From Deferrisomatales bacterium (GTDB lineage: Bacteria; Desulfobacterota; Deferrisomatia; Deferrisomatales; JARGFW01), in the NCBI GenBank assembly GCA_029211085.1, contig JARGFW010000023.1:1-36894 (forward strand): DNA of 36,894 bases, given 5' to 3'. Made by a program: the position numbers and the translations under genes. Each line of letters begins with the position of its first letter. Within the stretch, counting starts at the first letter, position 1. Below the pieces are notes generated by a model, which saw only the letters and a program-made list of their open reading frames with translations, had not been told where the DNA came from and searched no databases. Below, piece after piece: positions 7,075-31,534 of the stretch.

Positions 7075-9303
7075 TCAGCTCACCTGGCCGCACTCAGGGC
7101 ATGCGAAGCCCCACTGACCGTCTTGCTTGCGCGCCGGCAGTGCGAGGATGTCGCATCCATACACTCGGTCCTCCCAGCCGGGCCGTTGATCGTTGGTTTC
7201 CAGGAAGTCGCCGCTCGGGAGCATCACCGCGTACCGGTGTCCTTCGCCGCACAATCGGGTACCCCACTGTGTGCCGCAGCCGTGACACTCGCAGCAGAAG
7301 CAACCGCGGTCTAGCGGTTTGAAGTCGCGGGCAGGATCCGCGTTCACTGCGCAGGTTGGGCAACTGAGGAGAGCTATCGACCTCGCGTGGGCATCACGTA
7401 GTCTTTCGGCCAACGCATGCGCCGCTTGCTCTACTGTTTCGCATTGAAGCACCTCCTCGTGGGCGTCGTGCTTCTGTCGCACGAGCGATCCGGTCTTTCT
7501 TTGCCGCACGGCGTTGCGGAGCTCATCGTTGAGTCGCCGATGGTTGGAGCGGGCGGTCCGCAGATCAGCTTCGGCCGCTTGCACCATCGCCGCCACGTTC
7601 AGCGATTCCCACTCGAAGTCGTGCGGCGGCGTGTGCAGTTCGAGGGTGTTCCCCCCATCCTGGCTGCTGAGCCACCTCGCGTGTTCCTCCAGGTTGATAA
7701 GGTCGCGAACGTCCGGCGGGACATTTACACGCAGCGGGTAGTCGCCCAAGCGGGCACCGGAGAGGAACCACCGCAAGGCCCGAGCCACGCGCTCCGTGCT
7801 TCCGATTTCCCATGGCGAAACAGGGAGACAACCGCCACCCGCGAGCATGTTCCGTGGGTCATTCCCGACTGTGTGCAATGACGTGAGGAGCTCTAGGTCA
7901 GCCGAAGAGCGCTCGTCGTCGGACGCGAGGAACAGCACTAGCACATCGCCACGCTCCCGTTCGCTAGCCGCTTGCCGAATCCGATCGAGGCTCTCACGGA
8001 CCCGCTCATCCGCTCCTGCTCCGAGGTTGGAGATCAGCGCGACGATCGTAAGCTCCCGCTCGCCGAAGGCGATGCAAGTCGTGCCGTCGTCTCGCCAACT
8101 CAAGGTAACGTCCACACTGTCACCCCGAAGCGACAGCAAGCCTCCTGGCGCGAGCGGCATCTCGAGCGCCGTGTCGGAGGGCTCGTACCCCAACGTGTGG
8201 AGTGCTCTCACCGTCAGCAACATTACGAACGAGTCGAGGCCTCGGCAAAGGCGCTGTGCCTCGGCGTGGAGTTCAGACGGGCTCTGCGTTCGACCGGCTC
8301 CGGTCCTGGCCCACTCACGCCAAAGATCGGCGATGCGGCGGTAGTGCTGGTCGTTGGTCAGAATGTTGGTGCTCTTGAGGGTTGTAGGGACGTAGGCGCG
8401 TCGCGGGACATCTTCGTAGAGCGGGGAACCCAACAGCCCCATCACCTTGTACTTCAGCCACTCGAGTTCCCGCAGCGCGGCCTCCGCCTTTCTACGTCCT
8501 TCGTTCGCATCAATCGACTTCCCCCACAGCTCGCTTATTCGGTGCTCGCGCTGGTAGGTGCCAGCGACCGACGCTGAGTAATCCTCCTTTTCCTGGAACA
8601 CCTTAAGCAGTCTCCGCAACACGCGAATCCGTCGGTTCAGATACGCGCCAAGGTTGTCCAACAATCGAGCGACAACGCGGTTCTCATAGATGTCGACCTG
8701 GTCGTACCGTACCTCCGCAAGGATTCGCTTCGGCAGGATTCCACGGAGCAGAGGTCGGTCCCAATCCTCGGTGTGAGCCGCGAGATAGGAGACTGCAGCC
8801 GGCGGGACGCGCCGCGCCTTCGGCACCGGAACACGCTCTACTTCGACGTGCAGATGTGCACGGGGCTTCAGACAGGCCGCTTCGAGGTGGCCAAATTGCT
8901 CGCGAACCAGGATCTCCAGGGGCTGCAGATCTACCTGCTCAGAGATACCCGGGACCAGGGGAATCACCTCGATCCACTCGAACCAGGAGGCGCCCTTCAG
9001 GGTGAGATCCTTGAGCCTGTCGCCGATGGTGCGAACGCTCTCGGCCTCAAGGTCGTCCGGCACCTGCCCGCGCGACACAGCTCCACTGTCCCGCTGGCCA
9101 TCGCCGGTGAGCAAGTGCCACTGCCCCGAGGGTTCCGGCATGAGGAAGTCGCCGTGTTCTGCGCCGGCGGAGTTCATGAAGACGTCCTGGTCGCCGGCCT
9201 CCAGCACCCATCGGCCCATCAGCGTGCCGGTCAGAGGAGGGACCGGGGTTTGGCGCCCTGTGAGCCGATCCTTGAACAGGCTCTGGCGAGGCTCAGTCTT
9301 CAT
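7075..9303 (-). CDS. DUF2357 / McrC-like partner protein with C-terminal zinc ribbons
   Basis: I place the start at ATG 9303, whose codons overlap the stop of the upstream McrB-like gene (ATGAAGACTGA); this gives 742 residues. The centre carries the DUF2357 hallmark YDQVDIYENRVVARLLDNL (near residues 200-220) followed by a helical hairpin. DUF2357 proteins are the McrC-like partners of McrB-type motor proteins, and many carry a PD-(D/E)XK nuclease at the C-terminus. Here I do not find a clear nuclease core. The last 100 residues instead hold CPTC (about 648), CCECHGCG (about 671) and CPECG (about 737), i.e. two zinc ribbons likely to bind nucleic acid. It is the last gene of the minus-strand operon and converges on the phospholipase-D gene. 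Confidence 0.75.
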   Translation of the reverse strand: MKTEPRQSLFKDRLTGRQTPVPPLTGTLMGRWVLEAGDQDVFMNSAGAEHGDFLMPEPSGQWHLLTGDGQRDSGAVSRGQVPDDLEAESVRTIGDRLKDLTLKGASWFEWIEVIPLVPGISEQVDLQPLEILVREQFGHLEAACLKPRAHLHVEVERVPVPKARRVPPAAVSYLAAHTEDWDRPLLRGILPKRILAEVRYDQVDIYENRVVARLLDNLGAYLNRRIRVLRRLLKVFQEKEDYSASVAGTYQREHRISELWGKSIDANEGRRKAEAALRELEWLKYKVMGLLGSPLYEDVPRRAYVPTTLKSTNILTNDQHYRRIADLWREWARTGAGRTQSPSELHAEAQRLCRGLDSFVMLLTVRALHTLGYEPSDTALEMPLAPGGLLSLRGDSVDVTLSWRDDGTTCIAFGERELTIVALISNLGAGADERVRESLDRIRQAASERERGDVLVLFLASDDERSSADLELLTSLHTVGNDPRNMLAGGGCLPVSPWEIGSTERVARALRWFLSGARLGDYPLRVNVPPDVRDLINLEEHARWLSSQDGGNTLELHTPPHDFEWESLNVAAMVQAAEADLRTARSNHRRLNDELRNAVRQRKTGSLVRQKHDAHEEVLQCETVEQAAHALAERLRDAHARSIALLSCPTCAVNADPARDFKPLDRGCFCCECHGCGTQWGTRLCGEGHRYAVMLPSGDFLETNDQRPGWEDRVYGCDILALPARKQDGQWGFACPECGQVS

Positions 9304-11755
9304 CGTGCCCCAGGCGTTGAAGCTCCTGCCGGAGCAGCGCCAGGGAGCGAAGCGGCTCACCTTTCTTGTCCAGGAGGCTCCACCCGGTTTGGATGCGCTC
9401 GCGCAGCGCGATGATGTCCTCGGGGCGGTTGTCATGGCGGTCGCGGATTTTGCGGAGCAGCTTGGTGGCCAGAATGTGGTCGGTCGCCTCGCCGAGCGTC
9501 CCCTCGGCCGCCACGACCACGGGAACGTAGAAGCTCATCTGCCGTTCGAGCCGGTTGCCCCAGCCGACTCGGAACCGGCGCCGCAGGGTGTCCCCAAGCT
9601 CGGTCTGGAGGAAATCGTAGGCCTTGGCAGCTTCGCCTTGGTGGGCGTTCATGGCTACAGCAAAGGCCTGCTCGAGTGCGCTCAGGCTGACTGGGTTCTG
9701 CGGCTGATGGTCCTGCCGCTCGAACGCCTTGCGGATGCTGGGGAGTTCGATGACATGGGCTCGGTCGTAGGTTTTGTCCGCGAAATCCTTGGTCGTTTCG
9801 TCGTGGTTGGCCGTCCCGATGAACCAGACGTTCGGTGGGATCAACATCTTCGTCCCACCATCCGTCAGCAGGTTTGGAGCGGGGTCGACCGCGGCGGTCA
9901 TGAGCACGAGGCGTTGGCGATGCCGATCCTGCTCCAGGGCCGAGAGCAAGTCAGCGAAGTACTGCTCGGGGTGCGAAAGGTTCATCTCATCGAGCACGAT
10001 GATAAAGGGGGTGTCTCGGTAGAGCGGAGTGGATGCGCGGTACATAGCCTGGAGGAACTCTGACTCGTAGAAGCGGCGCTCGAACGTGTTGAAGTGGCCG
10101 ATGAGGTCCTGGCGATCCCGCCAGCCCGCCTGCACTTCGATGAGGGCGCTCCCAGCGCCGATCGCGCGGGCGAAGGCTAGAGGTAGACTTGTCTTTCCGG
10201 TGCCACTGATCCCCTGGAGCAGGTGGAGACGGCTCATGGCGAGCCCGCCGAGGAAGCTCCGCACATCCTCTGCCGAATAATAGAGCTCCTTCCCCGTTTT
10301 CGGGTCCCAAGCCATCCGATGGCGCACATACTCTGCGAAACCGGCAAGGTCAGGGAGCGTGTCCGTACTGGGTCGAGTCGCCTGAAGCTCGTTGCTCGAG
10401 TCCATAGCGCTGCACGACGGGAACGGACTCTTGCCTTCGACCCCCTTGACCAGCGCGTCGACTTCGGTCCGGAGTTGGCTATTCGCTTCATGGAGCAGAG
10501 CGTTCGCCGACTCGAGGGACCGCTTCTCGTCCCGCAGGGACTCCAACTCCGTCACCGCGATCCGCTTCCGCGCGGCCTCCTGGCGGGCCTCGCCGAGTTC
10601 GGCGAGCAACTGCAAGCGGTCGGACTCCCACAGTTCCTTCTGGCGTTCGAGCTCTTCGAGGCGTTGCGCCGCTTCGGCGCTGGGACGGCCACCCAGTGCC
10701 TTCCGTAGCTGCTCGCGCTCCTCCTCCAGAGCACGGAGCCTCTTCAGAACTTCCTCGGGTGTCTCCCCCCCGAAGCGGCGGTCTGCTTCTTCGCGGTCTG
10801 CTAGGAGCTGCGTGTAACGGTCTCGCTCTGCTCTCGCCACGTCGAGTCGCTCGGCCAGGGCCTGGATCTCGCTATCCTTCAGCTCGATTGCACGCGCCGT
10901 GCGCTGGGCGACCTTCTCATCGAGCGCCTTTCGGTCTTCATCCAGAAGTTCCCGGTCAAGATCAAGATCCGCCGCCAGTTTCCGAAGCCGCTTCGACTCA
11001 GAGGCGAGCCTACTGCTTTCCTTCGCCAGTTCTTCGCGCTGCGAGGAAAGCTCCGCGCGATTGGCCTCACGGTTCGCCGCTGCCTCCTGGGTGTCCTTCT
11101 CACGTTGGGCCTCGACCTCTGTCGCGAACTGGTCGCGCTTCTCTTGTAGGTCTCGCTCGAACGCTGCCCGCTCGTCATCGATCTGTTTCCGGTGACGAGA
11201 GAACTGCTCACGGAGCGCCTCCCCTTCGGCCTCCAACTGGGCGAGCGCCTCGCGGTTTCGGCGGCTGAATCCTGCATCGGCGTCGGCCTCTCGATGAGCG
11301 ATCTCCTCGTGGCGCCGGAGAAGATCCGCTTCATCCTCCTGGAGTGTCCTCTCGCGCTCCGAGACGGCGAGGTCCCGTTCGCTAAGGTCATCTTCCAGCG
11401 CCTTCACCTGAGCGCGATCGTCATCGGCTTTTTGCGCACGTGCGTCGATCTCTCTGGAGCGCTTGGTCACTTCGGCTTCCGCTGCCCCGACACGCTTTCG
11501 CTGCGACTCGAGTAGGGCTAACACCTCCGACGCGCGTTTGACGAGGTCCTCTTCGCGCTCGAGTGGCAGTGAAGCCGGAGCCGGAGCCGCCGCCATCGCC
11601 TCGATGTCGGCCTCGGTCGCTTGCGCCATCGCGGCCTCCTCAACGCTGGCAAGCGTCGCCGCCGGGGTTACGGCCGCCGGTGTGTTGGGGAGTGCCGGTT
11701 TCGCGGCCGGTTTGTCGTAGCGCTTCTTGTGCTGTTTCTTGCCCCGCTTAGCCAT
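9293..11755 (-). CDS. McrB-like AAA+ motor protein with long N-terminal coiled coil
   Basis: The start at ATG 11755 overlaps the preceding stop (ATGGCTAA) and has GGAG upstream; the product is 820 residues. A lysine-rich N-terminus (MAKRGKKQHKKRYDK) and an Ala/Pro linker lead into about 400 residues of heptad-like Glu/Arg/Leu coiled coil (about 70-470). The AAA+ domain follows: Walker A GISGTGKTS near residue 514, Walker B FIIVLDEMNL near 585, and the sensor-type GTANHDETT near 640. The LDEMNL and GTANH strings are typical of McrB-family motors, which in modification-dependent restriction hydrolyse GTP or ATP and drive an McrC-type nuclease. Its neighbour is indeed DUF2357/McrC-like. The coiled coil replaces the usual N-terminal modified-base reader, so target recognition must be elsewhere. 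Confidence 0.9.
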   Translation of the reverse strand: MAKRGKKQHKKRYDKPAAKPALPNTPAAVTPAATLASVEEAAMAQATEADIEAMAAAPAPASLPLEREEDLVKRASEVLALLESQRKRVGAAEAEVTKRSREIDARAQKADDDRAQVKALEDDLSERDLAVSERERTLQEDEADLLRRHEEIAHREADADAGFSRRNREALAQLEAEGEALREQFSRHRKQIDDERAAFERDLQEKRDQFATEVEAQREKDTQEAAANREANRAELSSQREELAKESSRLASESKRLRKLAADLDLDRELLDEDRKALDEKVAQRTARAIELKDSEIQALAERLDVARAERDRYTQLLADREEADRRFGGETPEEVLKRLRALEEEREQLRKALGGRPSAEAAQRLEELERQKELWESDRLQLLAELGEARQEAARKRIAVTELESLRDEKRSLESANALLHEANSQLRTEVDALVKGVEGKSPFPSCSAMDSSNELQATRPSTDTLPDLAGFAEYVRHRMAWDPKTGKELYYSAEDVRSFLGGLAMSRLHLLQGISGTGKTSLPLAFARAIGAGSALIEVQAGWRDRQDLIGHFNTFERRFYESEFLQAMYRASTPLYRDTPFIIVLDEMNLSHPEQYFADLLSALEQDRHRQRLVLMTAAVDPAPNLLTDGGTKMLIPPNVWFIGTANHDETTKDFADKTYDRAHVIELPSIRKAFERQDHQPQNPVSLSALEQAFAVAMNAHQGEAAKAYDFLQTELGDTLRRRFRVGWGNRLERQMSFYVPVVVAAEGTLGEATDHILATKLLRKIRDRHDNRPEDIIALRERIQTGWSLLDKKGEPLRSLALLRQELQRLGHDED

Positions 11756-13358
11756 GCGATTCTCCAGTGCTCTCAATCGAGGATTCGGACTCCGTGCTCG
11801 TGAGCCCCAGGAGGAGCGAGACGATGTCGTAGATCTTTTCCACGTGCTGCTCGGCAGCGTCGGGTGACACAGAGCCCCCATCGGCGTGGCCGGCCGCGCC
11901 GCCAGCGCTCGCGACCTCCTCAAGAGTGACAAGGAGCCCAGGCGAGGTTCGAGCTGCTCCAGCGAACGGGTGCGTCGGGTCTCGCTGCGCCAGCAGAGCG
12001 GTCGCAGTCACGAGTGGGCGCAGACGCCAGTTGTCCTGGTACTCGGCGACGGATCGGATGTGCCCAGGCCTCACGTTCAGGAGGGAGTTAGGGATCGGTG
12101 CCGCGAACCCAAGCGAGTGGAACGCGCCCTCGTAGATCGCAGCGAGGACGCTCCGGTCTTGCTGCTGCACGAGGCGTTGCGTCCCTGTCCAGCGATCGAT
12201 CTTTGGGACGTACACGCGCTTCCAGATGTCTCCGAGCGGGCGGGTAACCGCCAATGAGGAAAAGACGACCTCGAGCACCTTCACCCCTGCACGAAGGACC
12301 TCGTTGATCTTGCGCTCTGGACACTCCGGTCCGAGTGACCTCATCTCCAGTCGAGCCGATTCCATCGCAACGAACTGGTCGAATGCGGAGTGGTTTCGGA
12401 GGTTGACAGTCATTCGATGATCGATCGCGAGGCCGGCCTGCAAATGAATGGCTTCAAGCCAGCGCTGTTGGTCCTCGTAACCGGCGTGTAGTGTCTCCCC
12501 GACGAGGTGGTCGATGACGCCGAACAGGCCAGGGACATCGTGCATCACCGCCTCCAAGCGTCGACGGAGGCGCACGCTTTGCCCGAGCCCGAACGGGTCG
12601 CACGCGTACCAGTCCATCGCACCCGCGTCCGACTCTGGCACGTAGAGGTAGGTCATCAGGAAGATGGGCTGGGGTTTTTCTTCAACGAAGCTGACCCGAC
12701 TGATTTGGACGCCGGAGGCGACAAAGCTGCCGAGCGACTCATCTTCACTGTCGTCCGCGTCCTTGAATCGGAGTCCCTTTCGGTGACGGGCGACCGCTTG
12801 CACGACCGCGCTGGCGGTGGGGGTTGCGGGGGTGGTCTCGCTGCGCGGCAGCACAGTAAATGCGCGGTGGCGCCGAGGTCTCCCTGTCGGCCCCAGCAGG
12901 ATGGACGGAAACCCGCCCTCGTTGAATTCAAGCTCGCAATAGTCGAGCGCCTCCACGAAGCGTGGCCAGAGGTCCCCATTCCACGGGTCCTGGAAGACAT
13001 AACCGGCGACCATCTCTTGGGTCTCGAGTGCGTCCTCTTCGAGCACACGCAGCCCACCCTCGGTCGGAAGCCCGTGTTCGTCGAGGTGCCCTAGATCTCG
13101 TAGTTCGGTGATGATGAAAGCCGCAAGGTCGGTATGTACCGAAAGGTGGTCGGCAATGACGTCGGCCCGGCGCACTCCAACACGACAGAGGCCCATGACG
13201 GCGCGCTGTAGCAGGTTGAGCTTGCGCTGCCGAACCCGGGGGGCGACCACCCGGTAGGCCCATGCCGGCCAAAGCAAGAACTGTCGTGAGCTCCACCGCG
13301 CGTGGTGCCGCGGGCCAAAGTTCAGGGCCGGTCGCTCAGGCGTGAAGTTGAATGCCAT
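11748..13358 (-). CDS. Winged-helix protein of unknown function in the TerY-P/helicase operon
   Basis: I choose ATG 13358, preceded by a run of seven Gs that can act as ribosome site; GTG 13370 in the same frame is possible. The product is 536 residues. Residues about 40-115 (LLQRAVMGLCRVGVRRADVIAD, then HLDEHGLPTEGGLRVLEED) read as a winged helix of the kind seen in DNA-binding or protein-docking modules. The remaining sequence is a mixed fold with no motif I know; an acidic segment (KDADDSEDESLGS) sits near 200 and a Ser/Glu-rich tail ends the protein. It overlaps the helicase gene by 23 bp and the McrB-like gene by 8 bp, so it is an integral component of the operon. Bridging motor and target is a guess. 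Confidence 0.8.
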   Translation of the reverse strand: MAFNFTPERPALNFGPRHHARWSSRQFLLWPAWAYRVVAPRVRQRKLNLLQRAVMGLCRVGVRRADVIADHLSVHTDLAAFIITELRDLGHLDEHGLPTEGGLRVLEEDALETQEMVAGYVFQDPWNGDLWPRFVEALDYCELEFNEGGFPSILLGPTGRPRRHRAFTVLPRSETTPATPTASAVVQAVARHRKGLRFKDADDSEDESLGSFVASGVQISRVSFVEEKPQPIFLMTYLYVPESDAGAMDWYACDPFGLGQSVRLRRRLEAVMHDVPGLFGVIDHLVGETLHAGYEDQQRWLEAIHLQAGLAIDHRMTVNLRNHSAFDQFVAMESARLEMRSLGPECPERKINEVLRAGVKVLEVVFSSLAVTRPLGDIWKRVYVPKIDRWTGTQRLVQQQDRSVLAAIYEGAFHSLGFAAPIPNSLLNVRPGHIRSVAEYQDNWRLRPLVTATALLAQRDPTHPFAGAARTSPGLLVTLEEVASAGGAAGHADGGSVSPDAAEQHVEKIYDIVSLLLGLTSTESESSIESTGESHG

Positions 13359-16300
13359 GGTCCCCCCCACAGAGCTTCAAGAACTGGACGAGGCCCGGTA
13401 CTGCCCGTGCGGCCTGTTCGTCCTTCACCATCCCGCCGTCGCCGACGACGACCAGCAGGCGCTTCTGTCGGCTCATTGCCACGCAGAGTCGGTTCTCCAG
13501 CATAAGGTGCCCATACTTGCGCCGGAGCAGTTTCGGCTGGTCCGCAACGATGTCGTTCGATCTGGTCATCGACAACAGGACGATGTCGAACTCCTTTCCC
13601 TGGAAGGCATCGACGGTGCCCACGCGAAGCCGCTCAGTTAACTTCCCCGAGGCTCCCCTCGTTGTCTTCCAAGAATCGTGAATGCGGTACGATCCGTCCT
13701 CGAGCTGCTCGGTCATTCCGAGCGGCTCCATCTGACGCAGGACTTCGTTTACCTGGGCCGAGTAGAAGGAAATCACACCGACGCTCAGGTCTGGCCGCTC
13801 CGTCATGAGACGGTGCGCCTCTTGAGCAATCCACTTCGCCTCAGCAGTTCGGCTCTTGCTCTGCCCACGTCGCTCGGCTCCGTGCCCCAAGGGAACGTCT
13901 ACCCACGCCGCGACTGCTCCTTCGTAACTCGTCAGGTTGTGTGCGAACTCCTCGGGTGGTCGGCCGGAACTGAAGCCCTCGCCGTAGGGTGCATAGAATG
14001 TGTCGCTCACAAAGTCCCCAAGAACAGGGTGCATTCGGTATTGCACGTCCAGGGTGACGGTGCGTTTGATGCCGTCTGATCGCTCTCGTTCTTGCAGTTG
14101 CGCAAACAGGCGCTGGAAGAGACTCGTCCGTAGCATCTCCTGCGTTTTCGCAGACACATCTGCATCGAGGTCGTTCTCGATCTCGTGGTCGAGGATGTGA
14201 GGCAGCTGACGGTGGTCACCGACTAGGATGATCCGCCGCTCTGCCAGTGCCATCGGGATGAAGAGGTCGAGTGGGTTCGCGCGCGCGGCTTCGTCAACGA
14301 CGACCGTCTCGAAGACGTTGCTCTCCCCCTTTCGTAGGCTCATCTGGTAGCCGACGGCTTGTTGGCAGGTCGCGGCGAGGACCACTGTGTACTTTTCAAC
14401 CGTGTCGCGAGTGCCCGCACGGTCGTTCTCCAGGTCGTCGCAGAATTCGTGGAGGACCGCTTCGACCCTCCCGGGCGAGGAACTAACCGCCTCTCGGAGC
14501 GCATCGACAACTGCTCCGAGTGCCACCTCCACATCCTCACTGACCATTGGTGCGGACGCGGGGCGCTGGTCAGGCATTAGTCGGTCAATGAGGATCCCTT
14601 GAAGCTCGCAAAGATCCGGGAGAAAGCCCGGCTCGTCCTCGACGTCCCACGACGCTGCCTGTTCCAGAAGAGCCTCCTCATCGGGGTGGAGCACCGCTAG
14701 GCGCTGGAGGCGTCGTAACGCCTTCCGCGCCTGGGTGTAGCCGTCGTCGGAGAAAGCCGCGGTCGAGCATCGGAGACCACGAACCGCTTTCAGTGTCTGC
14801 TCGACGTCCGGGTCCGCTTCTCCGCCAGTTTGTGTGGGGCGGCGCAGCTGTTGTGTGAGTTCGAGGAGCCGGTCGGACACAACTGGGGGCACGTGGGGAG
14901 CCGCGATGTCCCGAACTGTAGTCAGCAGATTGGATACGTCCTCGGCTCTTGATGGCGCCTGCAAGTATCCAACGGCGAGGTCGCGACACCGCCGGAGCGC
15001 CACGGCTGCGGGCAACTCGTCGCCCATAGCAAGCTTCGCGCGCACAGCGTCGACCCGTTCCTGTCGCCACCGCTCGAACCCATCCGCTTCGTCGGTCTGC
15101 CCTCGTTTCCGGCCTACCTTGATGGCGGGGAGACCGAAGACCTGCGTAGCACTGGCGACGTTCTCCACGGCGTCGTGCTGGTAGCTGGTGAGCAGGTAAC
15201 GGCCTGAAACCCCATCCGTGTCCTCAGAGAGCTCGGACAGGCGCGCTTGCAAGGCGGCGATTGTCCTGGTCTTTCCCGTGCCGGGTGGACCCTGGATCAG
15301 CGTGATGTCGGGGGTGTTGAGTGCAATCTTGAGTGCCTCCACCTGACGGCCGGTGGGCTCACCACCAAAGGCCTCCCGAGCCGTCGCGGAGAGCGGCTTC
15401 TCCATCCGCCGCCTTCGCTCAGGGACAACTTTGCCCTCGATCAGCAGGCCCAGCTGGGGCATGGGGCACTCGGCGGACGCGATGAGGGCCTGCGCCTTCT
15501 TGCGCCGCTCGAGGCGCGTTCGGTCCCCGCCGAGGCTCATGAACAACACGCCCTTGTCGGGCGGCGGGTTCCGATCCTCGTCATTCCAGGCCGGTAGGCG
15601 GAGATCGAGGGTGAGGCGCCGACGGTCGTGGCCAACGCACTCCCCCGCGAAGATGCGATGACGGCCGTTGGACGTGTCTGCGGGTTCGGCGCCCAGATCG
15701 GTCGCTTCGGTGAGCTCGGCAGGCGGAGACGCCGCTGCCTCCAGGTCTACGGATTCGGTTTCCTCGAGCGAGCGCATGCAGTCCTCCAGGCGCTCGTCGT
15801 CCTCCAGGTGGAATCGCCAGCGGCCATCCGCGAGCGGTTGCCGCGAGTGGTAGCTCAGCCAGCCGAACTCACGCGCGCGGCGCTGGATGCTGCGGCGCTC
15901 GAGTTTATTGTACTCCCGCCAGATAGCGAGGTAGCTGTCAGCCTCTGCAACGATCTGGTCGAGTTCACTGCGGGCGGTGCCGCGGAAGCGGCCGGCCATT
16001 GTGTAATCCACGAACCGGAACTGCCCTCGAACGAGCAAGACCGGGCGCCGCTCGTCATCGTTCTGTGCGCGTTTGGCCTCCACGACTCGGGTAACCTGTA
16101 GTCGATCGTCGGTATCTCGTGCCACGTCTATGGCCCAGCCCCTACCGTACAAGCGAAACGCGCTACGCTGGTCTGCCTGGGGGTTGGGGCTACCCGAGAG
16201 CAACACCCGCGCGGAGCCGCCGGCGTCCTTCACCAGGATCTGCTCCTCAAGCCAGGCGATGACGTCGCTGATCGAAGTCAGGCTCCTGCGCTTTCCACGA

Positions 16301-16671
16301 ACGTGCTCGACGATCTTCTCATCAACGCCAAGGTCTACGGGTTGCGGCCAGACGTTCTCTGAGGGGAATTCTCGAACCTCAATGACGAGGGATGTCGCAG
16401 CGACCTTCTCGTCGTTCGGGTGACGAGCCGCGATCCACGCGACACGGGGGAGGGCTCGAAGGAGGACGCCTTCCAGCAACTCCTGCTGGTGCGCATTCGC
16501 CCCGTCGATCGCCCAAGCCGCTTCGCCCACCCGAATCAGCGCCTCGGACTCGAGACCGCTCGAGAAGAGCTCCACCTCGGTCATGGCCGTGAGGGGGCCA
16601 AAGTCGCCTTTGGAGGCCGGCACCACCTCAAGGGCGGTGGGCTTCCCACGTTGGACGTCGCTGATCCTCAC
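13336..16671 (-). CDS. Superfamily 1 helicase, DNA2/UPF1 (AAA_11-AAA_12) type
   Basis: GTG 16671 overlaps the kinase stop (GTGA) and has GGAGGGAG upstream. The 1111-residue product has a complete SF1B helicase core in its C-terminal half: motif I QGPPGTGKTRT near 459, motif II VVVDEAA near 790, motif III GDHRQLP near 817, motif V TVDAFQGKEF near 1022 and motif VI ENRLCVAMSRQKR near 1064. This family unwinds DNA or RNA 5' to 3' using ATP. The N-terminal 450 residues are specific to this system, with a beta-rich region (SDVIAWLEEQ..., VRGQFRFVDYTM) and an OB-like segment before motif I. The long insertion between motifs I and II (about 520-770) is helical. By context it is the nucleic-acid-remodelling arm of the defence complex. 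Confidence 0.92.
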   Translation of the reverse strand: MRISDVQRGKPTALEVVPASKGDFGPLTAMTEVELFSSGLESEALIRVGEAAWAIDGANAHQQELLEGVLLRALPRVAWIAARHPNDEKVAATSLVIEVREFPSENVWPQPVDLGVDEKIVEHVRGKRRSLTSISDVIAWLEEQILVKDAGGSARVLLSGSPNPQADQRSAFRLYGRGWAIDVARDTDDRLQVTRVVEAKRAQNDDERRPVLLVRGQFRFVDYTMAGRFRGTARSELDQIVAEADSYLAIWREYNKLERRSIQRRAREFGWLSYHSRQPLADGRWRFHLEDDERLEDCMRSLEETESVDLEAAASPPAELTEATDLGAEPADTSNGRHRIFAGECVGHDRRRLTLDLRLPAWNDEDRNPPPDKGVLFMSLGGDRTRLERRKKAQALIASAECPMPQLGLLIEGKVVPERRRRMEKPLSATAREAFGGEPTGRQVEALKIALNTPDITLIQGPPGTGKTRTIAALQARLSELSEDTDGVSGRYLLTSYQHDAVENVASATQVFGLPAIKVGRKRGQTDEADGFERWRQERVDAVRAKLAMGDELPAAVALRRCRDLAVGYLQAPSRAEDVSNLLTTVRDIAAPHVPPVVSDRLLELTQQLRRPTQTGGEADPDVEQTLKAVRGLRCSTAAFSDDGYTQARKALRRLQRLAVLHPDEEALLEQAASWDVEDEPGFLPDLCELQGILIDRLMPDQRPASAPMVSEDVEVALGAVVDALREAVSSSPGRVEAVLHEFCDDLENDRAGTRDTVEKYTVVLAATCQQAVGYQMSLRKGESNVFETVVVDEAARANPLDLFIPMALAERRIILVGDHRQLPHILDHEIENDLDADVSAKTQEMLRTSLFQRLFAQLQERERSDGIKRTVTLDVQYRMHPVLGDFVSDTFYAPYGEGFSSGRPPEEFAHNLTSYEGAVAAWVDVPLGHGAERRGQSKSRTAEAKWIAQEAHRLMTERPDLSVGVISFYSAQVNEVLRQMEPLGMTEQLEDGSYRIHDSWKTTRGASGKLTERLRVGTVDAFQGKEFDIVLLSMTRSNDIVADQPKLLRRKYGHLMLENRLCVAMSRQKRLLVVVGDGGMVKDEQAARAVPGLVQFLKLCGGDHGIQLHA

Positions 16672-18068
16672 GGCTCCCTCCCCGGCTGAAGCTCAAAGCT
16701 GAGGACACGATGAAGGCGACTCTTGTCACCAAAGTGGAGGCGCCAGGACGCTTGTCCCGCAGCGAGGCGCACCGTCTGCGGCCGGTCGGAAACGGTCGTC
16801 TGGCGACCGCCCGAGGCCGAGAAAAGCGGGTATTGTTCGCCGTCCAGGCTCCTGATCGAGATGCAGTCACTGGTGAGCGACGCTTCGACCACCGACTCGT
16901 CCGCCCCCGGTCCCCTCTGGTCAAAGGCGAGACGACGCGTCACGGTGAACGGGGTCACCGATGTCACGGCCCCGTGGCCGACGATGACGGGCCGAACCGA
17001 ACCTTGTTGGGGCTTTGTGAGAATGCCGCCGCTGGCACCGTGACCCGGGTCCCAGAGGTGGAAGGCCGCGATGGCGAATGTAGGTCGAGCGTTGTCACAC
17101 CACGTACACTGGTGTTGGTTGAAGTAGAAAGTGCCTCCGCAATTCGGGCAGCAAATCGTCGCGTCGGCGGCGGCGAACAGGCGCGCGGCCCACTCGGCTG
17201 CCCCAGGCCTCGCCGATGGCATCAGGCGGCCAGTCCCAAAGGTCTTATGGAAAGCTTCTGCAAGACGAGCGGACAACACCCACTCGCGCGGAACGCCGAA
17301 GTCCGCGCGATTGCGGTCGTCGTCGGCGTCGTCGATCCACGGGAGCAGACCAGAGAACGCTTGCTCCTCGAGCTCGGGCCCCCCGTCGTTGACAAGGTCG
17401 CCGATCAGCGGGTGCGCTAGCGTCAAGGCTTGGAACGCTGTGACCGCGAACGCGTGTATGTCGGTCAGAGTGGTGACGCCCGACCTGCCCTGGACGAGCT
17501 CTGGTGCGCCGTATCCCGGAGTATAAACGCCCGCAAGCGATCCTGGCGCCGACTCGTAGCGCAGGTTGTCCGTGTCGATAAACCACACTTCGGCGAAGGA
17601 CGGGTCGTCAGAAATGAAGATGTTGGTGGGTGACGGGTCGGAGTAGGCGAGACCTTTCCCGTGCAGTTGCGCGAGGACGTGCGCAGCTCGGCCCAGCACA
17701 AGCAGGCGCCGGCGAAGTCCCCCGCTACTCAGATACCACTCGACGTTCGACGCCTCGCCCTTGGGAGGAGCGAGCAGACGCTTGATCGGCGCCATGCCCG
17801 TCAGTAACTCCATCACGTAGCCGGTGTGAGGCGGGCGAAGCATCTCGAGCGGCTTCGCGAGGGGGAGCTCGCTGAAAGGCAGCCGCCTGACGTGGGTGAG
17901 CTGGTTCCGCATCCGCTCGCGGTGCTCCTGACCCTGCCCTGCCACAAGTTTCACGGCGAGGCGCCCCCCCTTCACCGCGTACACAGCACCCTGGCCCCCA
18001 CGGCCGAGAAGTTCGACGAGTTCATACCGAACGCCGTTTGCGTCTATGACGGACCTGACCTTGCTCAT
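16668..18068 (-). CDS. TerY-P type Ser/Thr protein kinase with zinc ribbon
   Basis: The 466-residue product starts at ATG 18068, overlapping the phosphatase stop (ATGA). The kinase domain (about 15-290) has a glycine-rich loop GRGGQGAVY at 22-30, Lys40 in LAVKLV, a catalytic loop AYSDPSPTNIFI near 142 and the metal-binding IDTDN near 163. The HRD and DFG motifs are thus replaced by YSD and DTD. The catalytic Asp, Asn and metal-binding Asp are kept, which I recall as usual in the kinases of TerY-P triads. A zinc ribbon (CCPNCGGTF...CTWC, about 306-326) and a beta-sandwich-like tail, perhaps FHA-like, follow. It should phosphorylate a component of this system and be opposed by the adjacent PP2C. 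It is cytoplasmic. Confidence 0.88.
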   Translation of the reverse strand: MSKVRSVIDANGVRYELVELLGRGGQGAVYAVKGGRLAVKLVAGQGQEHRERMRNQLTHVRRLPFSELPLAKPLEMLRPPHTGYVMELLTGMAPIKRLLAPPKGEASNVEWYLSSGGLRRRLLVLGRAAHVLAQLHGKGLAYSDPSPTNIFISDDPSFAEVWFIDTDNLRYESAPGSLAGVYTPGYGAPELVQGRSGVTTLTDIHAFAVTAFQALTLAHPLIGDLVNDGGPELEEQAFSGLLPWIDDADDDRNRADFGVPREWVLSARLAEAFHKTFGTGRLMPSARPGAAEWAARLFAAADATICCPNCGGTFYFNQHQCTWCDNARPTFAIAAFHLWDPGHGASGGILTKPQQGSVRPVIVGHGAVTSVTPFTVTRRLAFDQRGPGADESVVEASLTSDCISIRSLDGEQYPLFSASGGRQTTVSDRPQTVRLAAGQASWRLHFGDKSRLHRVLSFELQPGREP

Positions 18069-18802
18069 CTCGTCCCCTCGGAAGATGGTGCTGGAGCGTG
18101 AAGGACAGCAAGGGTCTTGTCATCAAGGTGTCCTGGCGTCGGCCAGTCTCGCAGCTCAGCAGTCAACGTGCGCCAACGCTCGGTCGGCGTCAGGGGCTCA
18201 AACGTGTCGATGAGCCAGTCGCAAAACTCGTCGAAGCGCTTTGGGACGAGGTCATCCGCAACGCCGTCGGTCGCCAGTACGGCGATACGTGTGCACTCGG
18301 CGGGGGGGAGTTCTGCCAGGGTCCAGGCTCGTGGTCCCTTCGACGCACCTAGTCCCACCGTCTCGTTTGCGAAACCCTCCCCCCTGTCGCCAATGATGAC
18401 CCGCAAATCCGATCCCGACCGGGTGAGCGCGAGTCCGTCCCCGAGGCCTCCGACGACCCACGTACCCATGGGGGTCGCGAGCGCGAACAAACAAGTGGTC
18501 GCTGCACTCGCCGGTTCCATGGGGTGCACGCGCAACCGCCACAGGACCTCGATGAGATAGGAGAGATAGGAGACGGGGGCGCCGGTGGCTTTGGCCCAAC
18601 GGGACACCGCCTCCTTAACCGCTGCGCACGCCGCTTGCGAGCCAACGCGGGCGTTCGGTTTCGACCCCATCCCGTCGCACACCACCGCCAATGCCCCGAA
18701 GGGGCCCACGGCTCGCAACCATGCGTCCTCGTTCGGCTGCCCCTCCTTGCGGTGGAGCGGCCCCCGGACCGAGGCGCCGAAGCCGTAGGTGTGGTGAGTC
18801 AC
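18065..18802 (-). CDS. PP2C-family protein phosphatase of the TerY-P triad
   Basis: The 245-residue product has the PP2C metal and catalytic motifs in order: PNEDAW near 23-28, VVCDGMGS near 41-47, GGLGDG near 117, VLATDGVADD near 176 and LDDKTLAV near 228. All the aspartates that bind the two metal ions are present, so it should be active on phospho-Ser/Thr. It lies 12 bases after the VWA gene and overlaps the kinase gene by 4 bp. The tight pairing implies that it reverses phosphorylation made by that kinase. It is shorter than many PP2Cs and has no regulatory extension or signal peptide. Start ATG 18802 is preceded by GGGGG (in GAGGGGGGCAAGTG), a workable ribosome site. Confidence 0.9.
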   Translation of the reverse strand: MTHHTYGFGASVRGPLHRKEGQPNEDAWLRAVGPFGALAVVCDGMGSKPNARVGSQAACAAVKEAVSRWAKATGAPVSYLSYLIEVLWRLRVHPMEPASAATTCLFALATPMGTWVVGGLGDGLALTRSGSDLRVIIGDRGEGFANETVGLGASKGPRAWTLAELPPAECTRIAVLATDGVADDLVPKRFDEFCDWLIDTFEPLTPTERWRTLTAELRDWPTPGHLDDKTLAVLHAPAPSSEGTR

Positions 18803-18814
18803 TTGCCCCCCTCG

Positions 18815-19618
18815 TCAGAAATCGAAGTCGTCGAGGTCGGTCGGCTCGACCATGACCACGCTATTCGGGTTGGTGCTTCGGGAACGCGTCGCGACGCTCA
18901 TCGTCACCCAGCGGAAGAAGTTCTTGATCTCCCGCGCCTCGTGCGCCCCGAAGACCCGCCCCTCGTCATTTGCGAGAAAGGCGGTGAGCGTTTCATGGTC
19001 AGCGTCGGCGCCAATGCCCATCGCGAATCTTGTGGCCTTCGAAGCGCGCTCTGACTTGAGGAGTTCCGCGAGGGGGCCGCGCCAGTCGTCTGTTGGGACG
19101 CCATCAGAGACGAGCACGAGCGTCGGCCGGTAAGCGCGGCTCGGGATTGTGTTCCGGTCCTCGACCATGGTTCGCACCAGGTCGAACGCCTCGCCCATCG
19201 GTGTTCGGCCGGAGGCCTCCATCGGCACCCACAACGTCTCGCGTGCGGGACGAAGCGATGTGTGAATCGACGCACCGCCCCGCCCGAAGGCGATGACGCT
19301 CACATGGATCTCTGCCCGGGAGTCGTCCTCCTCAGCAAAGGTCGTGACCATCTCGGAGACCGCGTCATTTAGCGCGTCGATCTTACCGTTGGCGCTCATA
19401 CTGCCGCTGACATCAGCGAGGACGATGACCGGCAGCGGTCGCGCCGTCGACATCGTGAACTCCTTGAGTTTGGTCATCTGTTCCTCCTGTTTCGGGGCCG
19501 CGGCCCCGATTTCCCGTTCCGCGACTGCGCTGGCCGGCGGCTTGCCCCCGGCTCGTCCCCAGTAGTTGTCGTTGACCCAACGGCTGACAATGTCTTCTTG
19601 GTACTTGGCCCAACCCAT
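18815..19618 (-). CDS. terY-like: TerY-like von Willebrand factor A domain protein
   Basis: The VWA domain begins with PVIVLADVSGSMS, a complete DxSxS metal-ion-dependent adhesion site. The MIDAS Thr is in GRTPMGEAF, and LVLVSDGVPTDDW supplies the last Asp. TerY-type VWA proteins form triads with a PP2C and a kinase, and both are next in this operon. The start is unsure. ATG 19618 gives 267 residues, with a protein-like N-terminus (MGWAKYQEDIVSRWVNDNYW), but only a weak ribosome site. ATG 19477, preceded by a perfect AGGAGG six bases away, gives 220 residues and starts just before the VWA domain. I annotate the longer form and note that both may be made. The acidic C-terminus ends DLDDFDF. 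Confidence 0.85.
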   Translation of the reverse strand: MGWAKYQEDIVSRWVNDNYWGRAGGKPPASAVAEREIGAAAPKQEEQMTKLKEFTMSTARPLPVIVLADVSGSMSANGKIDALNDAVSEMVTTFAEEDDSRAEIHVSVIAFGRGGASIHTSLRPARETLWVPMEASGRTPMGEAFDLVRTMVEDRNTIPSRAYRPTLVLVSDGVPTDDWRGPLAELLKSERASKATRFAMGIGADADHETLTAFLANDEGRVFGAHEAREIKNFFRWVTMSVATRSRSTNPNSVVMVEPTDLDDFDF

Positions 19619-19640
19619 GGCTCGTCTCACTCTCCACTGA

Positions 19641-19973
19641 CTAGCAGGAGTGTCGTTGAGCGCTGCGACGACGCGGGCGCAGACCACGGAAGTCGCGGTT
19701 GCGATACACCGTCATGATCAAACCGCTGTCGCTGCACACGACCTGGACACCCTCTACTCCCGAGAGGTCGATGCCGTCGCGCTCGAAACGCTTGACCTCC
19801 TTGCGGCCCACCGCGTAGATCGTCGCCCCGCGGACATACGCGACCCTCCCGAAGTTGATGACGCGCCGGACGGCGTCCGGGGAGAGCCCACGTCCGCTCA
19901 TGCGCTCCCACGCATGGCGACTGACGTCGTAGTTGCTGTGGATGTTGAGGTTGTTGTGAACCGTTGCGCCCAT
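19641..19973 (-). CDS. DUF4258 family protein (RelE/BrnT-like fold), first gene of the sigma-54 operon
   Basis: ATG 19973 has AGGAG seven bases upstream; longer in-frame starts to 20084 give an unlikely Trp/Arg-rich sequence across the promoter and are rejected. The 110-residue product contains DVSRHAWERMSGRGLSPDAV near residues 15-35 (the SxHAxxRMxxRGI signature of DUF4258), then VAYVRGATIYAVGRKEV and VEGVQVVCSDSGLIMTVYRN. DUF4258 proteins share the small alpha-beta fold of RelE/BrnT mRNA-cleaving toxins, but many have no proven toxicity and no antitoxin is encoded beside it. As the first gene after the promoter it will be the most strongly induced. It may be an RNA-binding or RNA-cutting part of the response. 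Confidence 0.8.
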   Translation of the reverse strand: MGATVHNNLNIHSNYDVSRHAWERMSGRGLSPDAVRRVINFGRVAYVRGATIYAVGRKEVKRFERDGIDLSGVEGVQVVCSDSGLIMTVYRNRDFRGLRPRRRSAQRHSC

Positions 19974-20031
19974 GGGTCTGCTCCTGGATCTCCTCGCTGG
20001 CAGCCAATCCGCCTGCGTTTGGATCCAGGTA

Positions 20032-20049
20032 TTGCGAGGGCCGTGCCAA
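20032..20049 (-). promoter_or_regulatory. Sigma-54 (-24/-12) promoter of the defence operon
   Basis: On the minus strand the sequence reads TTTGGCACGGCCCTCGCAA. It has TGGCACG, four bases, then TCGCA, against the consensus TGGCACG-N4-TTGCW, with GG and GC separated by exactly 10 bases. Transcription would start near 20022, about 50 bases before the ATG of the DUF4258 gene and directly downstream of the sigma-54 activator gene. Confidence 0.85.
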
Positions 20050-20073
20050 ACTCGCCAGGTCGAGGTGGCTGTT

Positions 20074-20150
20074 GTCCATAACATGCTGTAAATACATAGA
20101 AAAATAGGGCGACGTGGTCATGTCCGGCACACGGCACATGAGTTATGGAC
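20074..20150. promoter_or_regulatory. Inverted repeat, candidate upstream activator sites
   Basis: GTCCATAAC at 20074-20082 and its exact complement GTTATGGAC at 20142-20150 face each other across 59 bases, about 52-60 and 120-128 bases upstream of the predicted start. A second dyad, CATGT-N12-ACATG, lies at 20119-20140. These are the right place for binding by the enhancer-binding protein encoded next door. The distal half overlaps its stop codon. Confidence 0.5.
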
Positions 20151-21837
20151 CCTCGCATTCGGCAGCAGGCTTCCGTGCGCCGGCAGAATTCTTCCGAGTA
20201 GTTTGTGTCTTCGCCCACTCACGGAGAGAGCGCTCGGATACGTCGCAAAGATCACAGGCCTTCGCACCGCTCTGTGACCCGATGCGCCGCAGCTCGTTGG
20301 CGAGGAACGCTTTGAAGTCCGCCAGAACGTCCGCGGTGCAGAGCGTACCGTTCGCCGCAACCACATCATCGATCACCGCCCCGTGGGCGAAAGCCGCCGC
20401 AACGGTTCGCGACATCGAGACGGTCGTTGTCCCGGCTGGGCCAGTAATGGATTCAATACCGTACGCAACAGCGTCTGCCGGGGACATCGGATCGCCGGCG
20501 TCGTTCCTGGCTGCGAGAATGCGGTAGGCGACACGGAAGAGGTCACGGAGGTTGCCAGGGAGCGGGTGACGCCCGAGGCTCACCACCACCTTCGCGTGGT
20601 GTTGATCGCTCAGCGCTGCCCGACTCTTCGTAACCCCGGCTCGACCAGCGGCCGCGGAGTAGACAGCCTCCCAAAGCCAGGGTATCTCGTCCGGGACGTC
20701 CCGCAGCGGTGGCAACGTCACGCTGAGCAAGCTGATACGGTCGAGAAAGTCGGGGGCAATCCGTGTCCTGAGTTCGCGGTCGTCGATGTTCGTCGCTGTC
20801 AGGAGGCGGAAGTCACTCTCGCGCGGTGCGTCGTCGCCGAGGGCGAAGTAACGCTTCTCCTCGATGGCGCGGATCAGGAGTCGCTGCAGGTCTGGGCTGA
20901 CGTCACCAACCTCGTCGAGAAATAGGGTGTCACGGTGCGCGGCTTCCAGGAGCCCAGAGCGGTCAGACGTGGCCCCGGTGAACGCACCTTTCTTGTATCC
21001 GAAGAGTTCGGCCCGCATCGTCTCGGGGCTGTACTGACCGCACGCGACGCTTGGCCAACGATCGTCCTGCTCGTCCCTCTTGAACGGGCTGTTCGACCGA
21101 ATCCAGTTGGCGAGGGTCGTCTTCCCTGTCCCGCGCTCTCCGCGAATGAGCACTGGGACCTTCAGCTGGGCGAAGCGCCTCGCCTCGGTGAACACGCGCT
21201 TCATCGCGTCCGTACGAAAGCGGCGTGGATCCCAAATGACGACTTGGTCCTCAGAACCTACCTGCAGGGGGCGAGACGACTTGTACACCTTGTAGAACGT
21301 CTCGATGCCAAGCTCGACTGGGACAATCGCCGGACGCCCACGCCTCTCGGCGCGACGATATGACTTCACAACCGTGAACGGTGGTTCGATGAACCCTGTC
21401 TCGGCCATCAGCACCCAGATGGTTTGCATTGATGGTGTGCCAGGGCTGATGTGCAGGACGAGTTCGCGCCCCGGGAATTGACGTCGCAACTCCGGCAACT
21501 TGTCACGGAGAAACTCGAACACTCCGCGGTGGTCTGTCGGGTCATCTCCATCCCACGCTTCAGCGTGTACGCGGAAGGAGCGGTCCCGAAGAGCTGAGGT
21601 CAGCTCTTGAAGAGCTCGTTGTTCGCGCCCAGTCGCGCGGTTGTCCGGGGAGCGATGAAGGAGTACGACATCGGTGATGCGACCGCAGTAGGTGGACTCG
21701 TCATCACAGAGCAGCGTCAAGGTCGGGCCCGGGACAAACCCGCCGACACCCATGCGGGGGTCTCCAGTCTCGTGGTCGCGCTCGAACGGGTCGTTGTTCA
21801 CAGCGACCCAGGTGACGAGGACCGGGGCGGCGCTCAT
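20143..21837 (-). CDS. rtcR-like: RtcR-like sigma-54 activator with CARF-type N-terminal sensor
   Basis: The 564-residue product starts at ATG 21837, overlapping the HTH gene stop (ATGA). The N-terminal ~180 residues include ELVLHISPGTPSMQTIWVLMAE, which matches the region of RtcR and other CARF proteins (HITTGTHxxQ-like) that holds the ligand loop. The AAA+ domain follows: Walker A RGERGTGKTT near 230, the sigma-54 contact loop GAFTGA near 282, and Walker B TLFLDEVGD near 304. The C-terminus (CDLCDVSERSLREWAK) looks like a DNA-binding helix-turn-helix. RtcR itself responds to RNA with 2',3'-cyclic phosphate ends and activates rtcBA; no rtcA or rtcB is present here. The likely target is the sigma-54 promoter immediately downstream, so this protein should be the inducer of the operon. 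Confidence 0.9.
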   Translation of the reverse strand: MSAAPVLVTWVAVNNDPFERDHETGDPRMGVGGFVPGPTLTLLCDDESTYCGRITDVVLLHRSPDNRATGREQRALQELTSALRDRSFRVHAEAWDGDDPTDHRGVFEFLRDKLPELRRQFPGRELVLHISPGTPSMQTIWVLMAETGFIEPPFTVVKSYRRAERRGRPAIVPVELGIETFYKVYKSSRPLQVGSEDQVVIWDPRRFRTDAMKRVFTEARRFAQLKVPVLIRGERGTGKTTLANWIRSNSPFKRDEQDDRWPSVACGQYSPETMRAELFGYKKGAFTGATSDRSGLLEAAHRDTLFLDEVGDVSPDLQRLLIRAIEEKRYFALGDDAPRESDFRLLTATNIDDRELRTRIAPDFLDRISLLSVTLPPLRDVPDEIPWLWEAVYSAAAGRAGVTKSRAALSDQHHAKVVVSLGRHPLPGNLRDLFRVAYRILAARNDAGDPMSPADAVAYGIESITGPAGTTTVSMSRTVAAAFAHGAVIDDVVAANGTLCTADVLADFKAFLANELRRIGSQSGAKACDLCDVSERSLREWAKTQTTRKNSAGARKPAAECEGP

Positions 21838-22046
21838 CTGCCACCTTCCTCGTCATCGCGTGTGGCCCCCGCCCGTTCAACCTGGTCTCGGATCCACGTG
21901 TCGATGTCGGCCCGCCGGAAACGCCACTGCCCACGGACCTTAAACCCCGGAAGATCGCCCGACTGCGCCATCGTGTAGGCCGTCTTTTCCCCAATCTTCA
22001 GGAGGGTGGCGACCTCTCGGATGGTGAGGATCTCGTCGTCAGGCAT
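21834..22046 (-). CDS. Excisionase-family (MerR-like) helix-turn-helix protein
   Basis: ATG 22046 has GGGAGAAG eight or so bases upstream; the longer in-frame ATG at 22094 is rejected. The 70-residue protein is a single winged HTH: ILTIREVATLLKIGEKTAYTMAQSGDLPGFKVRGQ, then WRFRRADIDTWIRDQ. This is the HTH_17 / excisionase pattern (helix, turn, helix, R-W-R-F-R wing, D-I-D-xWI). Such proteins act as recombination directionality factors or as small regulators. Its 4-bp overlap with the rtcR-like gene favours a local regulator, perhaps repressing the HTH-rtcR promoter. A role in excision of the surrounding element is the alternative. Confidence 0.85.
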   Translation of the reverse strand: MPDDEILTIREVATLLKIGEKTAYTMAQSGDLPGFKVRGQWRFRRADIDTWIRDQVERAGATRDDEEGGR

Positions 22047-22084
22047 CGTCTCTTCTCCCGCATAGTGCATTCTTGATCCGGGAA

Positions 22085-22113
22085 GAATTACCAATCATTG
22101 CCAGAATACACAA
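22085..22113 (-). promoter_or_regulatory. Possible sigma-70 promoter of the HTH-rtcR pair
   Basis: On the minus strand TTGTGT (22113-22108) and TAATTC (22090-22085) are separated by 17 bases, about 40 bases before the HTH start codon. The match is modest, particularly in the -10 box. Confidence 0.3.
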
Positions 22114-22217: not shown

Positions 22218-22256
22218 GCGTGAGAAGTCTGGGCAGAATTCATCGGCCGCCAACGG
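22218..22256 (+). repeat. Right copy of the 39-bp direct repeat
   Basis: Same orientation as the copy at 2384-2422, with 35 of 39 bases identical. It lies just upstream of the HTH-rtcR pair, outside all cassette genes, so the two copies enclose 2423-22217. Similarity does not extend clearly beyond the 39 bases on either side. Confidence 0.75.
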
Positions 22257-23970: not shown

Positions 23971-24131
23971 TCCGAATCGGCATGCAAACCTGACCCACCT
24001 GCGGGTCTGATCGGCGTCCAATCATGACCCACCCGAAGACCTTGAAAGCTTTCCACCGCACGGATTTGCGGTGCTTTGAGGTGGGTCTTTCTGCACGCCG
24101 ATTCTGGGTCAAAGTTGGGCGCCGATCCACA
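23971..24131. mobile_element. IS21-type terminal repeats without transposase (MITE-like), copy 1
   Basis: Two direct 24-bp units at 23976-23999 and 24010-24033 (pattern ATCGGC-TGCAAA/TCCAAT-TGACCCACC) face two inverted units at 24080-24102 and 24103-24126. Only about 45 bases lie between them, including a hairpin (CACCGCA-N6-TGCGGTG). The right edge reads ...GATCCACA, the complement of TGTGGATC. Repeated ~20-bp binding units at both ends are typical of IS21-family elements. No transposase is present. Confidence 0.6.
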
Positions 24132-24211: not shown

Positions 24212-24276
24212 ATGTGCGACGTTTCAACGCAGCATCTATTGTAATCGTATAGATACTGTGCTGAAATGTCGCACAT
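24212..24276. promoter_or_regulatory. Large palindromic operator of the abiE operon
   Basis: Arms at 24212-24239 and 24249-24276 are inverted copies, 24 of 28 positions identical, separated by 9 bases. The right arm runs over the predicted -10 box (TATAGA at 24248-24253) and the ATG at 24266. AbiEi antitoxins are known to bind inverted repeats and repress their own operon, so this is the likely autoregulatory site. Confidence 0.75.
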
Positions 24277-25788: not shown

Positions 25789-25862
25789 CCTGAACACAGA
25801 ACCTCAGTTTCGCGGCCCCGAGCAGATGCGGGTCCATCTCCCGTGCCGAATTGGAGGAAATG

Positions 25863-25925
25863 TGTGAATCGGCATGCAAAACTGACCCACCTGGAGGCCT
25901 GATCGGCGTCCGCAGTTGACCCACC
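25863..25925 (+). mobile_element. Solo IS21-type end (two 24-bp units), copy 2
   Basis: The edge TGTGAATC at 25863 is followed by two direct units at 25868-25891 and 25902-25925, both ending TGACCCACC, nearly the same as the left end at 23971. No opposing end is found before the histidine kinase gene ends at 25975, so it is a truncated remnant. Confidence 0.6.
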
Positions 25926-25974
25926 GAAGCATCCTCCATCAGCGTGCGGCGAACCCGCAGCCGAGAGGGAGACG

Positions 25975-28491: not shown

Positions 28492-28756
28492 TGCAAACCT
28501 CGGTCAGGGAGCGCGCCGGGTCGGGATCGCAAGCATAGCCCCGGAGGCGTATGCGAGAAAACAGCAGAACTCCCGGGGCCAGGCTCATGCCTGGTCAGGG
28601 CGCGACCCGGTGGGGAGTAGCCGATTCGGGCAGCACCAGGGGACAGCCCGCAGCGGGGACTCGGCCGCGGCGGGCTGCCGCCGGGGCGGGGTGGCTGGCG
28701 CTGTGGGGAATCCGGGACGCGTCGGAAGCGGAAGCAAGCACGTTACGAGACCCCAG

Positions 28757-28916
28757 TGTGCATCGGCATTCCAAACGGTCCCACCCAGGGGCCTGATCGG
28801 CGCCCCATCGGATCCATCCAGGTCCCTGGCAAGGTCAGTTCGGCAAGGGTGTGCTGGCCATGGAGGTGGCTCTGTCTGCGTGCCGACCACCGGTCAAGAT
28901 TGGACGCCGACCCACA
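28757..28916. mobile_element. IS21-type terminal repeats without transposase (MITE-like), copy 3
   Basis: The left edge TGTGCATCGGC is followed by units at 28762-28785 and 28796-28819. Inverted units lie at about 28865-28887 and 28891-28910, and the right edge GACCCACA mirrors TGTGGGTC. At 160 bp it matches the size and layout of the element at 23971-24131 but has diverged more in the units. Confidence 0.55.
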
Positions 28917-31531: not shown

Positions 31532-31534
31532 GGC

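Follow-up and report, generated by a model that had tools for sequence, protein, structure and literature searches.

A Type II CoCoNuT locus of a Deferrisomatales bacterium with an RtcR-like activator, a predicted sigma-54 promoter and an arginine-less HEPN-type site

Introduction

CoCoNuTs are widespread. The Type II CoCoNuT, named in Bell et al. 2024, comprises CnuH, CnuE, CnuB and CnuC, usually together with TerY-P genes; an RtcR homologue and a BrnT-like gene often accompany it, and its induction through RtcR/CARF is a proposal of the same authors (PMC11090510). In these systems CnuH carries an SmpB-like OB-fold and a RelE-like domain, an inactivated CnuC nuclease is normal, and the HEPN RxxxxH motif of CnuE is conserved in most, not all, members (PMC11090510). 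Promoters are only touched on in that work, and a sigma-54 promoter before the CoCoNuT is not located there (PMC11090510). In the literature searched, no experimental study of any CoCoNuT was found.

Here, we analysed 36,894 nucleotides of contig JARGFW010000023.1 from a Deferrisomatales bacterium (the window), whose genome is a draft bin with an estimated contamination of 8.5%. The original prediction for this DNA, a TerY-P, helicase and McrB/DUF2357 module under an RtcR/CARF sigma-54 switch, had regarded such inducible control as not described in detail. This part has to be given up because Bell et al. 2024 (PMC11090510) already set out the arrangement of the Type II CoCoNuT including its link to RtcR, and proposed RtcR/CARF induction. 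New in comparison to that study are the promoter evidence, a two-promoter layout and a lineage with an Arg-less HEPN-type site.

Identity of the locus

Judged by the encoded proteins, the locus is almost certainly a Type II CoCoNuT, cnuH-cnuE-cnuB-cnuC with the TerY-P triad (Table 1). Upstream of these genes lie a DUF4258 gene, which is BrnT-like, and the gene for a CARF-AAA-HTH regulator. The ten genes form a minus-strand cluster from 22094 down to 7075, with the HTH_17 gene first and the DUF2357 gene last in the order of transcription. All genes named in the original prediction were confirmed on this strand by Pfam, PADLOC and motif evidence. The overlaps described there were found at six of the nine junctions (4-23 bp), and the PP2C and VWA genes lie 12 bp apart. 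The DUF4258 gene is flanked by two sizeable gaps of 163 bp and 169 bp, the latter of which, on the rtcR side, contains the predicted sigma-54 promoter. For this gene, the overlapping ORF 19627-20139 was rejected as a wrong frame in favour of 19641-19973. Except for how far some frames extend, the original description holds.

Table 1 Features of the CoCoNuT locus in the order of transcription.
Feature	Position	Strand	Evidence
Small HTH_17 protein	21834..22094	-	Pfam HTH_17 E=4.6e-17; PADLOC mad1 E=1.1e-7
rtcR-like gene, CARF-AAA-HTH sigma-54 activator, RtcR_PspF1 subfamily	20143..21837	-	PADLOC RtcR_PspF1 E=1.3e-151
Predicted sigma-54 -24/-12 promoter, TTGGCACG-GCCC-TCGCA	20033..20049	-	Consensus match and conserved position in relatives
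DUF4258 (BrnT/RelE-like) protein, first gene past the promoter	19641..19973	-	Pfam 22.1 bits, just under the 25-bit cut-off
TerY-like VWA protein	18815..19477	-	VWA_2 E=3.4e-9; MIDAS DVSGS
PP2C phosphatase	18065..18802	-	PP2C_2 E=2.2e-32
Ser/Thr kinase, C-terminal zinc ribbon	16668..18068	-	Pkinase 31.6 bits vs cut-off 31.7; CPNC, CTWC
CnuH, SF1 UPF1-like helicase	13336..16671	-	AAA_12 E=7.6e-33; AAA_11 E=3.6e-27; homologues in 78 loci
CnuE, wHTH and C-terminal helical (HEPN-type) region	11748..13358	-	wHTH fold match, AF2, alignment
HEPN motif position in CnuE, GGAAGH vs R[ND]xxxH (Arg lost, His491 kept)	11886..11903	-	Alignment with homologues
CnuB, coiled coil and McrB-like GTPase	9293..11755	-	AAA_5 E=8.2e-8; Walker A, NxD (GTANHDE)
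CnuC, DUF2357, inactivated nuclease region, C-terminal CxxC pairs	7075..9303	-	DUF2357 22.2 bits, just below cut-off

The assignment to Type II follows from CnuB, which combines the NxD motif with a coiled coil, from the helicase CnuH, and from CnuC with DUF2357, zinc-binding motifs and a dead nuclease. The NxD motif is present in all 61 resolved CnuB homologues, the coiled coil gives SMC/Rad50-like matches, and CnuH also matches the IGHMBP2-family model. The nuclease region of CnuC has no invariant acidic or Lys residue. The original prediction had passed over the NxD motif, the dead CnuC nuclease, the HEPN-type region of CnuE and the sigma-54 promoter. An Hsp70 unit, the mark of Type III-A CoCoNuT, was not found by Pfam in the window, nor were any RNA families by Rfam.

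A scan with CnuH returned 78 loci from several phyla, which are related and not independent. The order VWA-PP2C-STK-CnuH-CnuE-CnuB-CnuC is kept in nearly all of those long enough to judge, and because the same order recurs across several phyla, the cluster is not a chance arrangement. By our judgement, a role of the operon in anti-phage defence is predicted with good confidence. The combined description, an RtcR-associated Type II CoCoNuT acting as a predicted RNA-directed anti-phage system through the steps proposed below, is probably correct.

The operon is bracketed, together with a Zac-like gene pair, by a 39-nt direct repeat at 2384-2422 and 22218-22256 (35/39 identical, 90%), which has only these two copies in the genome and possibly delimits a mobile defence island. 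The pair consists of two overlapping plus-strand genes at 2628-6894, of which the latter encodes a PLD-like domain (Pfam E=6.7e-9), and is probably another defence system; its PADLOC matches are weak (ZacA E=0.0012, ZacB E=4.5e-18). An AbiEi/AbiEii toxin-antitoxin pair (24266-25788, plus strand; PADLOC E=5e-59 and 5e-111) lies beside the CoCoNuT. A 60-nt repeat occurs between genes at 23974-24033, 25866-25925 and 28760-28819, its three copies being 70-85% similar, and the genome has more of them on contigs C432 and C190. Further along are a hybrid sensor histidine kinase (5TM-5TMR, PAS, HATPase, receiver; 25975-28491, minus strand), which uses a different frame from the longer and spurious ORF 25745-28588, a separate sulphur-metabolism cluster of sulphur transport, multi-rhodanese and metallo-beta-lactamase genes (28960-34222, minus strand) and, past it, a UbiD decarboxylase gene (35222-36628, plus strand).

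The RtcR-like activator and a predicted sigma-54 promoter

In the activator, Walker A, Walker B and GAFTGA are intact, the GAFTGA loop being located at aa 284. It reached 503.9 bits with the PADLOC model RtcR_PspF1 vs 145.4 bits with RtcR, and 188.6 bits with NCBIfam RtcR, for which the cut-off is 650. An identity as RtcR proper was rejected on account of these scores and of the lack of rtcBA neighbours and of rtcA. The genome contains one rpoN and one rtcB, and rtcA is absent from the draft. Since E. coli RtcR requires RtcAB (PMC9650030), the ligand of the activator may differ from that of RtcR. Across the loci of relatives, two RtcR-like subfamilies, PspF1 and PspF2, occupy the same place. 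The HTH_17 gene upstream probably starts at 22046, and a gene of this type also lies upstream of rtcR in locus L010. As a separate observation, altered GAFTGA loops (GAFTDA, GSFTDA, GAFTSA) occur among the CoCoNuT-linked RtcR homologues of L036, L060, L034 and L022, with sigma-54 boxes nearby.

Promoters were called by consensus matching, with a score of at least 10 of 13, strict GG and GC, and a position in the 400 bp that precede the first gene of the operon. In the window, 93 bp separate the rtcR stop from the box, and the DUF4258 start follows about 60 bp further on. Taken alone, this box is no better than chance expectation, and it was accepted because its position is conserved across loci. 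Boxes just upstream of the operon were found in 41/67 loci, and in 31 of the 41 the distance from the box to the first start codon is 30-90 bp. A scrambled consensus gave a mean of 1.6 and a maximum of 4 of 67 loci, and the reverse strand gave 0 of 67. Random windows drawn from these loci had a box in 5.4% of cases, and shuffles in 3.7%. In L011-L014, the box is retained while the preceding spacer diverged; in L034 and L060, where the DUF4258 gene stands ahead of rtcR, the box moves with DUF4258, whose start it precedes by 54 and 52 bp. No box precedes the operon in the Cyanobacteriota and Bacteroidota loci tested, and none lies directly before it in the RtcR loci L026, L028, L040, L071 and L075. 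An enhancer (UAS) footprint was sought by aligning the DNA upstream in four PspF1-type loci, and apart from the box nothing was clearly shared.

The original prediction of a CARF-type sigma-54 control is backed by comparative genomics, that is by the conserved -24/-12 box and by the co-occurrence of rtcR, which is not absent from most homologous loci. In 60 loci, 5 kb or more of DNA precedes VWA. The fetched flank includes an RtcR-like gene in 30 of them; in another 15, such a gene is located 10-28 kb upstream, on the contig and strand of the CoCoNuT. Presence of RtcR is associated with presence of the box (Fisher p=0.002), a value that overstates independence because the loci are related. What a sigma-54 pair requires is in place: a box with its GG and GC a fixed distance apart, a GAFTGA activator and rpoN in the genome. 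We conclude that the operon is very probably under sigma-54/RtcR control. With a promoter that is conserved and exactly placed, the proposed induction by RtcR becomes testable by a two-base change.

Loss of the HEPN-type arginine in CnuE

The product labelled 'wHTH protein' in the original prediction does contain a wHTH; the protein is CnuE, and the C-terminal HEPN RNase motif of its homologues had been overlooked. The AF2 model (pLDDT 89) matched a MarR-type wHTH in Foldseek (prob 1.0), and Csm6 came first among the hits but was not significant (E=0.24); no match of CnuE reached E <= 0.001. A C-terminal R-[N/D]-x(3-4)-H is present in 60/78 scored homologues. In the other 18/78, window included, the Arg is replaced by G, A, V or C, and the His is kept in 78/78. 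The loss of the Arg amounts to one change on a CnuH tree of 80 rows (a quick tree with some weak branches), and due to this single change the Arg-less CnuE looks like an old and stable state. The missing Arg has no bearing on the membership in Type II because Bell et al. allow exceptions (PMC11090510). HEPN families with His and without Arg are known; some use substitute basic residues, and others are seen as RNA binders (PMC3710099). At position 359, 15/18 Arg-less CnuE proteins have R (R-x3-E363), and the Arg-bearing ones mostly Q. As a substitute for the lost Arg, R359 was rejected for the window, which has V at this position.

With the Arg of CnuE lost and the CnuC nuclease dead, killing by a HEPN RNase cannot be assumed here, and the Arg-less lineage raises the question of the true effector. 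The DUF4258 protein is a candidate. Its invariant residues are H20, R24, R28 and R91, and fold searches gave weak colicin D-like matches, none at E <= 0.001. DUF4258 is commoner in Arg-less loci (11/13) than in Arg-bearing ones (15/47; p=0.001). A role as specific stand-in for the dead HEPN site was rejected, as the loss of the Arg is one event on the tree and gives no independent support.

Alternative explanations

The layout of the promoters bears on the published idea of a timer that leads from DNA restriction to RNA-based suicide. According to Bell et al. 2024, RtcR would drive one long transcript on which upstream DNA-restriction genes come first and the CoCoNuT last, and the CoCoNuT would stop the cell by its HEPN RNase only upon failure of DNA restriction. 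The genes are indeed co-directional and closely spaced (PMC11090510), and L040, L071 and L075 have a box only after rtcR. However, in the loci with a distant rtcR (10-28 kb upstream), a box lies directly before the CoCoNuT in 12/15 and one no more than 14 bp after the rtcR stop in 11/15; both are present in 8/15 and at least one in 15/15. In the window, moreover, no restriction genes stand between rtcR and the CoCoNuT, and the CnuE lacks the HEPN Arg. Because 8/15 of the distant-rtcR loci have two boxes, the predicted pattern makes a delay of the CoCoNuT by gene order alone less likely, while it fits control by RtcR. We consider the timing model unlikely. Alternatively, the activator might regulate other genes, the CoCoNuT being constitutive or under another promoter. 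In favour of this, the box of the window, taken by itself, does not exceed chance, about 29 sigma-54-type AAA matches in the genome could act at such boxes, and loci in some lineages, e.g. Cyanobacteriota, keep the operon without rtcR and without box. Against this stand the conserved position of the box in relatives, which tracks the presence of rtcR, and the direct adjacency of rtcR and box in the window, so that we regard this explanation as quite unlikely.

It could further be argued that the sub-lineage is decaying and the system no longer works, as 18 loci are without the catalytic Arg and the nuclease region of CnuC has no conserved catalytic residues. However, the loss is one change on the tree and widely spread, the frames are open, His491 is invariant in 18/18, and Walker A and NxD are intact. 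This pattern fits long-term constraint, and a dead CnuC nuclease is normal for Type II. Decay therefore appears very unlikely.

Proposed mechanism

We favour an RtcR-controlled, functional operon. Gene content, promoter sites, the loss of the Arg and the dead CnuC nuclease are read directly from the DNA. As known for RtcR-type proteins, which activate sigma-54 transcription, the activator would drive sigma-54 polymerase at the -24/-12 promoter just past rtcR, a site predicted by sequence, and would do so in response to a ligand that we infer. The operon DUF4258 - TerY - PP2C - kinase - CnuH - CnuE - CnuB - CnuC would then be expressed. Family knowledge assigns GTPase and helicase functions to CnuB and CnuH; the NxD GTPase CnuB, CnuC, the CnuH helicase and CnuE may act on translation-linked or foreign RNA, presumably in defence, and the kinase/phosphatase/VWA triad may set the state of these four proteins by phospho-gating. 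In the sub-lineage, the HEPN-type site of CnuE does not look competent, and nor does the nuclease of CnuC, so that cleavage, if any, might speculatively be carried out by the induced DUF4258 protein, the toxin-like domain of CnuH or an altered HEPN site.

We hypothesize, tentatively and with less than even confidence in the statement as a whole, that an ancient sub-lineage without the Arg and with the His is a sigma-54-induced machine in which RNA would be cleaved by DUF4258, the toxin-like domain of CnuH or a rebuilt HEPN site, and that a private promoter in many RtcR-linked CoCoNuTs would allow induction with, and not after, upstream restriction genes.

Comparison with known systems

The closest described system is the Type II CoCoNuT (PMC11090510), with which the locus shares genes, order and associations including TerY-P, the BrnT-like gene and the RtcR-like CARF activator; it differs in the HEPN-type site of CnuE, which is without Arg. 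The activator resembles RtcR of E. coli, the activator of rtcBA (PMC9650030), in its CARF-AAA-HTH architecture and GAFTGA loop, whereas rtcBA does not adjoin it and the genome is without rtcA. Similarity to Mokosh is seen with the PADLOC MkoA model, whose helicase part is matched by CnuH (E=2e-90) and whose N-terminal part is weakly matched by the kinase (E=3e-5). In contrast to Mokosh, kinase and helicase are separate genes in the window, and PP2C, VWA, CnuE, CnuB and CnuC are added. Like McrBC Type IV restriction, the window encodes an McrB-like GTPase with a DUF2357 partner; unlike McrBC, it has an NxD instead of an NxxD motif, a long coiled coil and no active PD-(D/E)xK nuclease.
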